NCBI GenBank assembly: GCA_022822135.1
Contig: JAJECH010000055.1
Coordinates: 62,001 to 126,000, forward strand
Direction of reading: 5' to 3'
DNA length: 64,000 bases
Source of the DNA: Pseudomonadales bacterium
GTDB lineage: Bacteria > Pseudomonadota > Gammaproteobacteria > Pseudomonadales > Azotimanducaceae
Below, piece by piece: positions 31,493 through 35,882 of the stretch. The translations under genes were made by a program, and so were the position numbers. The first letter of the stretch is position 1; each line of letters starts with the position of its first letter. The notes under the pieces are model-generated. The model was given only the letters and a program-made list of their open reading frames with translations. It was not told the origin of the DNA and made no database searches.

Positions 31493-33415
31493 ATGCCCGA
31501 CAACCGCGTCTTTGGCCAAAACCTATTCGGTACAAAGGCACCCGCAGATCAACCGTACCGATACCCGTTGTGGCGATACGTTATTGCGCTCGGTGTATTG
31601 GTTATCGGCATTCTGTACGCACTACCGAATCTGTACCCTCCCGATCACGCCGTCCAGATCGAGGTAGATAACGCCTCAATCGTCATCGGCACTCGGTTCA
31701 CAGCGCAAGCGCGCGATTTACTCGAAGGCGAGGGTATCGAGGTTAAACGGGCAGCGCTAACGCAGCGCGGCAGTCAGATTCATTTGTTTAGCGAAATTGA
31801 CCAGGTCCGCGCGAAGGACCTACTTGAGTCAAGATTGAACCCGGTTGGCATGGAGCGACAGTTCATCATTGCTTTGAATCTTGCCCCGACCACGCCCCAA
31901 TGGTTACGCGATCTAGGTTCTAAGCCAATGACACTTGGTTTGGATTTGGCTGGAGGTATCCATTTCGTTCTGCAGGTGGACATGCAGAGCGCCATAACCA
32001 AGCAACTAAACGACGAAGCGGACAAAGCAACGTCCCTGTTACGTGAAGCAAATGTACGCTATATCCCGAGCGAAGACTTTGTGTCGGAGGTCGATGTCCA
32101 TATTCCATTCGCGGACGCATCACGTCAGGCAGAAGCGATGACGGTGTTGGGTTCGTCGTATGGCCCACCAAATCACATCATCGAGGAAGTCGAGTGGCGT
32201 GGTGCTCTCGCCATTCGCATCGCGTTGACACAAGATCGCCTCAACGAGATTGAAGATGCTGCGATTGAGCAGAACCTAACAGGATTGCGCAATCGGGTGA
32301 ATGAAATCGGGGTCGCCGAACCGCTTGTACAGCGCCTTGGTAGCTCACGTATCGTGATCGAGTTGCCGGGGGTACAGGATAGCTCCGAAGCGAAACGGAT
32401 TCTGGATAAGTTCGCCACGCTCGAATTTCGACTCGAAGCATCGGTAACGGACCGGCCGTCGCAGATCGAAGTTCTGCCGTACGAAGGCGTCGATGTTAGG
32501 TTGCTGAAAGAGAACATCGTGACAGGAGACAACGTCACGGATGCACAACAGGCGCGTGATCCGGAAACCTCCTTACCTCAAGTCAATATGCAGTTCGACA
32601 GCATCGGTGGTGAACGGATCAATCGTGCGACTGCACCGAACATTGGTCGTCGCATGGGCATCATTTTCATCGAACAGCGACCGGTCGTTGTCAACGAAGT
32701 AGTCAATGGTGAACGGGTCGAACGCACGAAGATCGAAACTTCGCGGCGCTTGATTAGTGTCGCGACCATTCAAGGTGCGCTAAGTTACAACTCTCGTATT
32801 ACCGGTATTTCAGTAAGAGACGCACAGGAACTCGCGATATTGCTGCGAGCAGGTGCGCTTGCGGCGCCGATGTACTTCGTCGAAGAGCGTACGGTTGGCG
32901 CATCCCTCGGTGACGAGAACATTGACCGTGGCATGCTCGCGGTGGTGATTGGTTTAGCGCTAGTCGCGATATTCATGATCGTTTACTACAAGGTGTTTGG
33001 CGTGATCGCGGATATCTGCTTGACGATGAACATGATCGTTCTTATCGCAGTTATGTCGTTGTTAGGTGCTACGCTCACGTTGCCGGGTATCGCAGGTATC
33101 GTCCTAACGGTCGGTATGGCCGTGGATGCTAATGTGCTCATTTTTTCGCGTATCCGGGAGGAGCTAAAGCGCTCGCCGCCGGCGACTGCGATTAAAAATG
33201 GGTATGACCGTGCGTTTGTTACGATCCTTGACGCCAACATTACCACGCTCTTCGTCGCTCTGATCCTCCTTGCCATAGGTAGTGGACCTGTGGCCGGGTT
33301 CGCGGTGACGTTGTCCATTGGTATCGTCACATCCATGTTCACGTCGATTTTCGTTTCGCGTGGCTTGGTCCATTTAGTCTACGGTAATCGTGCCGTGAGG
33401 ACTGTTTGGATATGA
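31493..33415 (+). CDS. secD: Protein translocase subunit SecD
   Basis: A 640-residue membrane protein. TM1 lies near residues 24-44; a large periplasmic P1 domain follows, opening with 'GLDLAGGIHFVLQVDMQ' around residue 148. The second conserved block 'RAGALAAPMYFVEERTVGAS' precedes five further membrane helices. It uses the proton-motive force to pull preproteins through SecYEG. The stop TGA overlaps the ATG of secF (ATGA), so stoichiometric synthesis is expected. Confidence 0.97.
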   Translation: MPDNRVFGQNLFGTKAPADQPYRYPLWRYVIALGVLVIGILYALPNLYPPDHAVQIEVDNASIVIGTRFTAQARDLLEGEGIEVKRAALTQRGSQIHLFSEIDQVRAKDLLESRLNPVGMERQFIIALNLAPTTPQWLRDLGSKPMTLGLDLAGGIHFVLQVDMQSAITKQLNDEADKATSLLREANVRYIPSEDFVSEVDVHIPFADASRQAEAMTVLGSSYGPPNHIIEEVEWRGALAIRIALTQDRLNEIEDAAIEQNLTGLRNRVNEIGVAEPLVQRLGSSRIVIELPGVQDSSEAKRILDKFATLEFRLEASVTDRPSQIEVLPYEGVDVRLLKENIVTGDNVTDAQQARDPETSLPQVNMQFDSIGGERINRATAPNIGRRMGIIFIEQRPVVVNEVVNGERVERTKIETSRRLISVATIQGALSYNSRITGISVRDAQELAILLRAGALAAPMYFVEERTVGASLGDENIDRGMLAVVIGLALVAIFMIVYYKVFGVIADICLTMNMIVLIAVMSLLGATLTLPGIAGIVLTVGMAVDANVLIFSRIREELKRSPPATAIKNGYDRAFVTILDANITTLFVALILLAIGSGPVAGFAVTLSIGIVTSMFTSIFVSRGLVHLVYGNRAVRTVWI

Positions 33416-34326
33416 ACTTAAATATCGACTTTATGGCACATCGCCATATCGCAACGGTTCTATCAGTCTTATTCTTAATCGCGTCCGTTGTCGCGTTCGC
33501 TTGGCTTGGGGTAAATCGTGGGCTCGACTTCACGGGCGGGGTGTTGATTGAACTGGCGTTCGAAGCGCCTGTGGATCCGGTATATGTACGGACGATTCTT
33601 GCAGAAGACGGATACGGCAACGCAGTCGTTCAGAGCCTCGGTAGTGAAACTGAAGTTCAAGTTCGAGTGCCTCCCGTACCAGGAATCGACCAATCGAACT
33701 TGGGTAACAATATTCGTGCTTCTCTCGTCGACGGGATTGGTGCTGCCGATCTCCGACGGTCTGAGTTCGTAGGGCCTACGGTCGGTGAGGAACTCACGGA
33801 GAAGGGAGGTCTCGCGCTTCTTGTCGCGCTGGGTATGGTGTTGCTATACATCATGCTTCGTTTTACGGGGAAGTTCGCCCTTGGAGCAGTCGTCGCGTTG
33901 ATGCACGATGTCGTCATAGTCGTGGGTCTTTTCTGTATGTTCGGATGGACGTTCAATTTGGCCGAACTGGCAGCGCTCCTGGCGGTCATTGGATATTCAC
34001 TTAATGACACGATCGTAGTCTCCGATCGAATACGCGAGAACTTTAGGACGATACGTAGACGCAAACCCGTTGAGATCATCAATATATCTCTAAACCAGAT
34101 GCTAGGTCGGACGTTGGTGACTTCGTTGACGACGCTGCTAGTTCTCTTAGCGCTTTTAATCGCGGGAGGCGAGCAAATCTCCGGCTTTGCTACCGCATTG
34201 ACGATCGGTGTCGTAATCGGTACGTACTCGTCGATCTACGTCGCGGCAAACCTACTGCTCATGCTCAATATTCAGAGTGAAGATCTGGCGCTGCCGACGA
34301 AGGACGCGAACGAAGGTGCCGTATAG
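33412..34326 (+). CDS. secF: Protein translocase subunit SecF
   Basis: A protein of about 304 residues with six membrane helices, partner of SecD. Signature 'RGLDFTGGVLIELAFE' lies in the periplasmic domain start, and 'VVIVVGLFCMFGWTFNLAEL' and 'AVIGYSLNDTIVVSDRIREN' form the membrane core. ATG 33412 overlaps the secD stop by four bases; an in-frame TTG lies six bases upstream. It ends 16 bases before the convergent suhB end. Confidence 0.97.
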   Translation: MNLNIDFMAHRHIATVLSVLFLIASVVAFAWLGVNRGLDFTGGVLIELAFEAPVDPVYVRTILAEDGYGNAVVQSLGSETEVQVRVPPVPGIDQSNLGNNIRASLVDGIGAADLRRSEFVGPTVGEELTEKGGLALLVALGMVLLYIMLRFTGKFALGAVVALMHDVVIVVGLFCMFGWTFNLAELAALLAVIGYSLNDTIVVSDRIRENFRTIRRRKPVEIINISLNQMLGRTLVTSLTTLLVLLALLIAGGEQISGFATALTIGVVIGTYSSIYVAANLLLMLNIQSEDLALPTKDANEGAV

Positions 34327-34342: not shown

Positions 34343-35107
34343 TTAAACCGCAGCTATTGATACTTGCTTTGCTCGCTCCGCAACGAGCTTTCTGTGCATG
34401 TACGTGTTCCCGGCAACCAGACCGTCATTCTTCGATGTCCACTCACCGCCGCTCAGTGTTGTCGCGAATCCACCAGCTTCCCGAATAAACAAGCGTGCAA
34501 ATTGAAAATGGAATGCAGAAGCACCCGAATACGCGAGCGCGTCGTACCTCCCACACGCGGTGTTCGAGATGTCAATACCTAGACAGCCGGTGATCCGCGT
34601 GGTCAGTCGAAGATTCGAGAAGTCGTCTTGAACTTCAGAGATGTCTCGTGCGACCATGGCGTTGTTCGTTGTCCGAGTATCACTTACTCTCATGCGACCG
34701 TCACTCGTGAAGCAACCTTCGTTACGAGTCACATGAAAGTGACCATCTCGAAAATGATCCACAATCAATGCATGCTGAAGTCGATCGTCGCGTGAAATAC
34801 CGACTAGCGTACAGAAATGATCCAGACGACGCAGGAAGTTCATTCGCCCACAAATGGGTTCAATAACCCAAGTCGTCTCAGCGTTAGACGTCCGCAGGAA
34901 ATCATCAGCGACGACGATCTCATGTTCTGGGTAGGAACGTTCGACCGTGCTAGTGAATGTGCGCATTGCGCGATCGTGCGTACGCTGAAAATACGCTTCA
35001 CTCGCAGCTGAAATTGAACGCGAAGAAGGGACGTTAGGTGCGCGAGCCATCAATTCGCGACCAGCCGCACGGACCGCTTGAGTCGCGATTCTTAATATGG
35101 GGTTCAC
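34343..35107 (-). CDS. suhB: SuhB-like inositol monophosphatase fold protein, catalytic residues lost
   Basis: A protein of 254 residues from GTG 35107 ('NPILRIATQAVRAAGREL'), close to E. coli SuhB (267). Its position, divergent from trmJ and next to secF, is the normal suhB place. The fold is recognisable: 'ETTWVIEPICGRMNFLRRLD', 'RITGCLGIDISNTACGRYDA', 'ARLFIREAGGFATTLSGGEW'. The metal-binding motif WVIDPLDGTTNF has become WVIEPICGRMNF (two catalytic Asp and a Thr changed), the upstream E-E-S motif reads ADDF, and the late W-D-x-A-A-G motif reads SAFHFQFA. Phosphatase activity should be lost. In E. coli SuhB also joins NusA in rRNA antitermination, a role reported to be independent of phosphatase activity. 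Confidence 0.88.
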   Translation of the reverse strand: MNPILRIATQAVRAAGRELMARAPNVPSSRSISAASEAYFQRTHDRAMRTFTSTVERSYPEHEIVVADDFLRTSNAETTWVIEPICGRMNFLRRLDHFCTLVGISRDDRLQHALIVDHFRDGHFHVTRNEGCFTSDGRMRVSDTRTTNNAMVARDISEVQDDFSNLRLTTRITGCLGIDISNTACGRYDALAYSGASAFHFQFARLFIREAGGFATTLSGGEWTSKNDGLVAGNTYMHRKLVAERAKQVSIAAV

Positions 35108-35159: not shown

Positions 35160-35882
35160 TTGGAGACTCGAATCGTGCTCGTAGAACCGTCGCATCCAGG
35201 AAATATCGGGGCGACAGCGCGAGCGATGAAGACGATGGATTTATCGTCGTTGTACTTGGTGAATCCGAAGCGTTTTCCGGACCCACAGGCGGACTGGCGC
35301 GCGGCAGGAGCGTTGGACGTAGTCTCGTCAGCACGGATCATCGATTCGCTCGAAGATGCAATCGGCGATTGTGGGTACGTCGCAGGAACAAGTGTGCGCG
35401 ATCGGCACATCCCGTGGACAGTTAAGAGTGTTTCAGATTTCGCGGCGGATGTCGCGAGCATGCCTCAAACTTCAAAACCGGTCGCCATCCTGTTTGGGCG
35501 AGAAAACAACGGCTTATCGAATGACGAACTCGCGTTGTGCAATATTCATGTGCGAATTCCGTCATCGTCAGAGTACGGCTCACTCAACCTAGCCATGGCG
35601 GTCCAAATCGTGGCATATGAATTGTTCAATGCGCGGGGAAATAGTGAGGTACGCGCAGGTTGGGATCGCCGACACGCCAGTCACGCTGAAATTGCAGCGA
35701 TGTATGAGCATCTTGATCGCGTGTTGAACGAAATTGGGTTCTTCGATCCGAGCGCACCGAGAACCGCATTTACTCGATTCCAACGCATGTTCAGTCGAAT
35801 CGAGCTGGACGAAACGGAGGTAAAAATACTGCGAGGCATGTTCACTCATGTTGAACGTGCCGTTGCGACGAAAGGCGGCTAG
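35160..35882 (+). CDS. trmJ: tRNA (cytidine/uridine-2'-O-)-methyltransferase TrmJ
   Basis: A 240-residue SPOUT methyltransferase that methylates the 2'-OH of nucleotide 32 of tRNAs with SAM. Signatures: 'IVLVEPSHPGNIGATARAMK' at the start, 'VAILFGRENNGLSNDELALC' and 'IPSSSEYGSLNLAMAVQIVA' (knot region), then a C-terminal helical dimerisation part. The TTG start gives the standard N-terminus. It is divergent from suhB with a 52-base gap and upstream of iscS, with cysE and iscR missing between. Confidence 0.95.
   Translation: METRIVLVEPSHPGNIGATARAMKTMDLSSLYLVNPKRFPDPQADWRAAGALDVVSSARIIDSLEDAIGDCGYVAGTSVRDRHIPWTVKSVSDFAADVASMPQTSKPVAILFGRENNGLSNDELALCNIHVRIPSSSEYGSLNLAMAVQIVAYELFNARGNSEVRAGWDRRHASHAEIAAMYEHLDRVLNEIGFFDPSAPRTAFTRFQRMFSRIELDETEVKILRGMFTHVERAVATKGG

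Follow-up and report, generated by a model that had tools for sequence, protein, structure and literature searches.

A SuhB ortholog with a degenerate active site, and recurrent loss of SuhB catalytic residues within one bacterial order

The suhB gene in the window, by which we mean the whole 64,000-nucleotide stretch analyzed here (G000:C49:62001-126000, from a draft genome of 3.75 Mb), most probably encodes a pseudoenzyme: its catalytic residues are lost, and the gene is under purifying selection. We consider it most likely, with a probability of roughly 0.7, that the protein is kept for a noncatalytic role, presumably as a Nus factor in rRNA transcription. Mutants in suhB show cold-sensitive growth. 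Published accounts describe E. coli SuhB as required if NusB/E is to enter the rRNA transcription complex stably (PMC6614801, PMC4807359), and one of them describes relief of a suhB mutant without any need of the SuhB phosphatase (PMC6614801). The link between the phosphatase and the rRNA role has been judged from E. coli mutants. The natural losses described below, in which the active site has repeatedly disappeared and the lysine that contacts NusA has stayed, offer an evolutionary answer to whether the phosphatase is needed.

The window gene and its active site

The gene is a 254-codon frame (35107-34343, minus strand) that runs from GTG to TAA. That the frame is open had been claimed by the sequence-only reading that preceded this work, which named no strand. 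It and its neighbors comprise the following features.

34343..35107, minus strand: suhB ortholog, a putative pseudoenzyme with a degenerate active site (GTG start, TAA stop, 254 aa)
34904..34909, minus strand: codons 67-68, A-D replacing E67-E68 (alignment to E. coli SuhB)
34907-34909, minus strand: A67 codon
34904-34906, minus strand: D68 codon
34844..34861, minus strand: codons 83-88, E-P-I-C-G-R replacing D84-P-L-D87-G-T89 (alignment to E. coli SuhB)
34859-34861, minus strand: E83 codon
34850-34852, minus strand: C86 codon
34844-34846, minus strand: R88 codon
34508..34510, minus strand: codon 200, H replacing D212 (alignment to E. coli SuhB)
34382..34393, minus strand: codons 239-242, R..V at the E. 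coli K251/L254 positions (NusA-AR2 contact)
33406..34326, plus strand: secF, neighbor convergent with suhB, synteny conserved
35160..35882, plus strand: trmJ, neighbor divergent from suhB, synteny conserved

The gene is a SuhB ortholog. Its product matches Pfam PF00459 (Inositol_P superfamily) at 84 bits, above the cut-off of 27, its closest solved structure is that of E. coli SuhB in the PDB (residues 1-250, E 8.4e-27), and its best NCBIfam family is the SuhB equivalog NF008027, matched at 92.1 bits and so below the cut-off of 332. An AlphaFold2 prediction made with five close orthologs was too poor for a structure search or for an assessment of the pocket (mean pLDDT 41, pTM 0.42), so the assignment to the fold family, in which we concur with the earlier reading, rests on sequence. 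The claimed secF-suhB-trmJ synteny holds, and indeed the order secF-suhB-trmJ-iscS is conserved in all 17 members of the window's genus that have suhB; adjacency to trmJ extends to 12/12 outgroup suhB loci. IscR, searched with the E. coli protein as query, was not matched in any of the 17 genus loci (L188-L204; 35882-35984 in the window), where trmJ and iscS are neighbors, and iscR is present at 11 of the 12 outgroup loci.

We take E67, D84, D87, and D212 of E. coli SuhB to be metal ligands, and these together with E68 and T89 to be the metal and substrate residues of the IMPase family. All six are changed in the window protein: E67, E68, D84, D87, T89, and D212 align with A, D, E, C, R, and H. 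In the same alignment E67, E68, D84, D87, and D212 are invariant in all 25 canonical SuhBs. The translated motifs, WVIEPICGRMNF, ADDF, and SAFHFQFA, match letter for letter those from which a replaced catalytic site had been claimed, and where the NF008027 family has E-E, DPxDGT, and WDxAAG as catalytic residues the window protein has A-D, EPICGR, and FHFQFA.

The genus: selection and paralogs

SuhB is degenerate in all 17 readable members of the genus (18 genomes). The eighteenth genome, G012, lacks any PF00459 match but is only 77% complete, which leaves its SuhB state unjudged. Because the same positions are degenerate in every readable congener, chance or assembly error is excluded. Of the four presumed ligands, none is kept in seven of the genus SuhBs, one in nine, and two in one. 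An IMPase that is still active with a reduced metal affinity would be compatible with the acidic residues that persist at positions 68 (D) and 83 (E) of the window protein; with all six key residues replaced, A, C, R, and H standing at four of them, and with no ligand kept exactly in 7/17 members, we find this highly improbable. Judging from the residues replaced, the window protein has almost certainly lost catalysis.

The genus divides into subclade A (G000, which carries the window, G001, G006, and G015-G017), subclade B (ten genomes), and G004, a long branch that joins subclade A with a support of 83 in the SuhB tree. In pairwise Nei-Gojobori estimates, for most of which dS exceeds 1 or is undefined, the dN/dS of suhB is 0.043-0.095 over seven subclade-A pairs and 0.12-0.25 over four subclade-B pairs. 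The pairs with dS below 1 are G015-G016 (dS 0.78, ratio 0.093), G005-G013 (0.19, 0.25), G005-G009 (0.35, 0.23), and G008-G011 (0.98, 0.12). For G015-G016, the best-conditioned pair of subclade A, the ratio for suhB is about 2-3.5 times those for trmJ (0.028), iscS (0.048), secF (0.039), secD (0.027), and tgt (0.043), and rimP, rbfA, and truB stand at 0.092, 0.096, and 0.097. The gene therefore evolves faster than its immediate neighbors, yet nowhere near neutrally.

That speed, which leaves congeners of the other subclade only 27-32% identical to the window SuhB, is what a decaying pseudogene would show if selection had relaxed and the frame were open by chance. We reject this reading, which is scarcely credible, on the dN/dS values (0.04-0.25, far below 1) and on the frames, open in 17/17 readable genomes; the invariance of W81, R141, and G224 in the genus and the 94% conservation of R139 also argue against it. 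Relaxed selection, a concern raised by the sequence-only reading, is thus not seen. A neofunctionalized enzyme, performing new chemistry with new residues in the old pocket, would fit the presence of H200 in 6/6 and C86 in 4/6 subclade-A sequences, but in G001 and G006 the C86 position holds S and D, respectively, and the replacements vary among subclades and families with no common new pocket, so that this alternative too is very unlikely.

W81, R141, and G224 are conserved completely or almost so in all three groups, the active, the degenerate, and the genus SuhBs. Within the genus, R139 and E222 are each retained in 94% of the proteins, and G132 is retained in 82%. These six residues are candidates for the noncatalytic function of SuhB.

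A second intact SuhB, which the earlier reading had also thought worth excluding, was not found in the genus among the PF00459 matches of the congeners compared, an 82-position fragment at a contig end of G003 and the incomplete G012 aside. Besides SuhB, the window's genome encodes two PF00459 proteins, and these exceed the curated cut-offs for HisN and CysQ. Among 28 PF00459 loci compared in congeners, 25 are nearest HisN or CysQ, and the remaining 3 correspond to the degenerate SuhB; the genus matches that lack a locus of their own are, apart from the G003 fragment, degenerate SuhBs already read.

Recurrence across the order

With E. coli SuhB as query we screened 390 genomes from the order, and then read the trmJ-adjacent SuhB in the low-scoring ones; because the degenerate families were found through low-scoring genomes, the counts that follow give no rate for the order. 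The TrmJ-anchored search covered 71 genomes, in 3 of which trmJ was not matched. Genomes with no SuhB near any fetched trmJ copy (e.g., G038, G108, G229, G247, G260, and G287) were counted neither way, a match in G034 that lies beside no trmJ was left uncounted, and a fragment of 136 aa in G298 was dropped. Many genomes with a degenerate SuhB (most of f6, f7, f27, f37, and f38) carry two TrmJ-like copies, of which usually one adjoins suhB.

SuhB is degenerate in every member read of families f6 (12), f7 (2), f20 (4), f27 (5), f37 (9), f38 (8), and f39 (9), and in three of four members of f44. The resulting 52 full-length degenerate SuhBs, from eight families other than the window's, are each encoded on the strand opposite to trmJ, at a distance of 90-369 bases from it. 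In no case are D84, D87, and D212 all present; of the four ligands, 5 proteins keep none, 36 one, and 11 two. Less clear are f15, where three of four are degenerate in a poor alignment, and f8, with one partial gene (G368) and an intact congener (G385). Within the window's own family, f1, we read 18 of the 19 other genera and found 16 canonical SuhBs, a degenerate one in G036, and one without D212 in G019. The count of 52 excludes the three f15 rows, the partial f8 row, G036, and G019. The best match to E. coli SuhB anywhere in genomes of the degenerate families is no stronger than 3.1e-66, compared with 3.9e-68 or better for the canonical ones read. With that query, then, no match of canonical strength was found in the other families; their further PF00459 proteins lie outside this comparison, and active phosphatases may be among them.

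Because f1, f44, and f8 each contain both states of SuhB, the active site must have been lost independently several times if sideways gene transfer is set aside. A tree of NusA, an independent protein, requires six changes of SuhB state, on a quick search with several weak branches. The SuhB tree groups nearly all degenerate rows and would allow a single origin for them (two changes), on which we do not rely given its long branches and a grouping support of 82. Each tree was obtained by a quick search and has many weakly supported branches, and suhB may have been transferred sideways; barring such transfer, the conversion of SuhB appears to have happened several times across the order.

Outside the order the survey took in 140 genomes, almost every one from a different family. 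Of the weakest matches listed we read 16, excluding the weakest three (G438, G460, and G542), which have no listed coordinates. All 16 (14 near full length, 2 fragments) keep every readable catalytic residue; trmJ falls within the fetched stretch in only 8 of them, and some of the others may be paralogs. Among the 140, G423, G433, and G530 gave no match.

The contact with NusA follows a different course from the active site. In E. coli, the KL251/254AA substitution in SuhB is reported to lower NusA-AR2 binding from 94 nM to 141 uM, that is, to abolish it (PMC6614801). The 52 degenerate SuhBs keep K251 in 49 cases, with R in 2 more, as against 4 for E67, 14 for D84, 20 for D87, and 20 for D212. 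L254 is L in 21 and V or I in 27, and R184, which is conserved in most active SuhBs, is kept in none. When the 130 sites that are at least 70% conserved in active SuhBs are ranked by family-weighted retention, K251 comes 15th, D87 82nd, D84 89th, D212 92nd, E68 113th, and E67 118th. Conversely, in the eight homologs outside the order with trmJ nearby, the readable catalytic residues are kept in 8/8 and K251 is absent in 7/8. With K251 kept without an intact catalytic site in 49/52 and the readable catalytic residues kept without K251 in 7/8, the two features are separable in either direction. SuhBs outside the order that have these catalytic residues and no K251 occur in G459, G445, G427, G435, G452, G480, and G469; the seven loci are L376, L381, L383, L384, L385, L388, and L390. 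The proposal that the enzyme was dropped and the transcription factor kept, made in the sequence-only reading for the window's lineage, thus fits these other families well, since K251 is retained while the catalytic residues are lost.

A second recurrent feature is an arginine at the metal site. Of the 52 proteins, 28 have R at the E67 position (all members read of f27, f37, and f39, the three degenerate f44 members, and one each in f6 and f38), as does the product of the partial f8 gene, and T89 is R in the six subclade-A SuhBs, the window's included. Counting R or K at sites 67, 68, 84, 87, 89, 90, or 212, the degenerate proteins score 35/52 and, in the window's genus, 7/17, versus 1/25 for active SuhBs. 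In SuhB of M. tuberculosis, Mg2+ binding is reported to lead to dimerization, probably by ordering a mobile loop (PMC2080633). By analogy, the fixed positive charge of arginine may replace the structural part played by Mg2+.

NusA in the genus and comparison with known systems

For the window's own lineage the proposal is not supported in the form in which it was made. The enzyme site is gone, as claimed, but K251/L254 are R/V in the six subclade-A SuhBs and mostly lost in the sister subclade, and K251 is kept in 1 of 17 genus SuhBs (G004). Loss of the residues that contact NusA, which the sequence-only reading had named as grounds for refutation, is thus observed in the sister subclade, and the R and V of the window's subclade decide the point neither way. 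Set against the 52 degenerate SuhBs of other families, this contact is changed or lost in the window's genus only, and there NusA itself is rebuilt. Over the matched part, NusA is 41-51% identical to that of E. coli in 16 of the 17 genus genomes with NusA (L094 in G000; L079-L093). The corresponding ranges are 53-63% for the family's other genera (19 of 19) and 57-67% for other families, from which 34 genomes were compared, all but one of them (33) with a degenerate SuhB. The seventeenth, in G012, is a fragment with 59% identity, and no NusA match was found in G004. That G012 fragment (L179) lies at the base of the genus in the NusA tree and has a standard KH2 loop; SuhB was not found in this genome. 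NusG is 53-65% identical to its E. coli counterpart in the genus, below the 66-75% of other families, and NusB, at 38-45%, overlaps the low end of the 43-56% of other families.

Among thirteen control genes, the drop in identity ranges from 1 to 8 points in subclade A; in subclade B it reaches 13 points (yajC). SuhB drops by about 20 points in both, relative to an outgroup mean that includes the degenerate G041, and NusA loses 21 points in subclade A and 12 points in subclade B. Since yajC falls by 13, NusA of subclade B does not stand out, and the claim of NusA divergence is strong for subclade A only. With domain limits as we assume them, subclade-A NusA and the others differ in percent identity to E. 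coli in the N-terminal domain (39 vs 55-56), S1 (34 vs 53-54), KH1 (58 vs 83-85), KH2 (48 vs 70-75), and AR1 (20 vs 54); AR2 is the least changed (50 vs 55-56). In subclade B, AR2 is not spared, at 45% (range 38-51) vs 55-56%. In the five members, from both subclades, whose insertions were inspected, 20-28 extra residues follow residue 66 of the N-terminal domain. The KH2 loop, GRNGQN in its standard form, reads GEHGMN, GTNGEN, or GSNGEN in 16/17 genus rows and is standard in 29/29 other degenerate rows and 27/28 remaining rows. An insertion in the AR2 loop was discarded as a mark of the genus: it is present in 17/17 genus rows, but also in 13 of the 28 remaining rows, E. coli among them, and in 2/29 other degenerate rows. 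Within subclade A, NusA is nearly frozen (dN/dS 0.010-0.022).

The rRNA leader was read against the boxA consensus as we assume it to be. In G000 and G015 this leader carries a boxA-like CTCTTTAAA some 125 bases upstream of 16S, and G010 and G004 have ATCTTTAAA at the corresponding place.

The changed SuhB contact and the strongly divergent NusA, each peculiar to the genus while NusA is ordinary in the 34 genomes checked of other families, would also be expected if the genus SuhB had left the Nus complex and acted elsewhere, with another partner or RNA, with the degenerate SuhBs of other families remaining ordinary Nus factors. We regard this as unlikely: the suhB locus is kept, a boxA-like leader is present in both subclade-A genomes examined, R239/V242 are conservative changes, and of the NusA domains in subclade A it is AR2 that has changed least. 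The last point need not mean SuhB binding, because AR2 is also reported to bind the C-terminal domain of the RNA polymerase alpha subunit (PMC6614801). We retain the view that the window protein probably acts as a Nus factor together with its own altered NusA.

Under the explanation that we favor, the Mg2+/substrate site is gone, the fold family and locus are retained, and selection would maintain a noncatalytic role, namely contacts to NusA and to the rrn leader RNA that let NusB/E join the complex. Arginine, at E67 in five families and at T89 in the window's subclade, would take over the structural part of Mg2+ and make the scaffold metal-free. In the window's genus NusA has been remodeled as well. 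The recurrent loss in related families suggests that this helper role is what selection keeps. We propose the full scenario only tentatively and consider it somewhat improbable as a whole: that SuhB has repeatedly become a metal-free scaffold for transcription and ribosome assembly, often with arginine in place of the metal, accompanied in the window's genus by a coevolved rebuilding of the N-terminal and RNA-binding domains of NusA. The favored explanation itself is weakened slightly by two points: AR2 has diverged too in subclade B, and half of the controls outside the order have no confirmed trmJ neighbor.

Pseudoenzymes as a kind and the dispensability of the SuhB phosphatase are already known; no paper on a naturally degenerate SuhB was found in the open-license literature. 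What is new, as far as we found, is that the loss recurs within one order while the contact to the partner is preserved, and that NusA is divergent in one genus. The degenerate SuhBs are ready-made separation-of-function proteins for structural and genetic work, and the genus with divergent NusA is a natural variant of the rRNA antitermination complex, a re-engineered one if the coevolved rebuilding of NusA is true. They also advise caution: proteins called inositol monophosphatase by similarity alone may not be enzymes.

Among known systems, HisN and CysQ share the fold family with the window SuhB and are both encoded in its genome. Unlike it, these PF00459 paralogs retain motifs of the DPxDGT type, exceed the cut-offs of their respective NCBIfam models, and are found at other loci. 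E. coli SuhB, both Nus factor and inositol-1-monophosphatase (PDB 2qfl, 6ib7/6ib8, and 6tqo), is an ortholog that aligns over residues 1-250, likewise adjoins trmJ, and has the same fold family; its role in rRNA transcription is expected, as a prediction, for the window SuhB. The window protein differs from it in its lost active site, an identity of about 26-27%, R/V in place of K251/L254, and a NusA partner that is divergent. The degenerate trmJ-adjacent SuhBs of f6, f7, f20, f27, f37, f38, f39, and part of f44 resemble the window protein in having lost the catalytic residues at a conserved trmJ locus. Unlike the window SuhB, they keep K251, have an ordinary NusA where checked, and in many cases carry arginine at E67.
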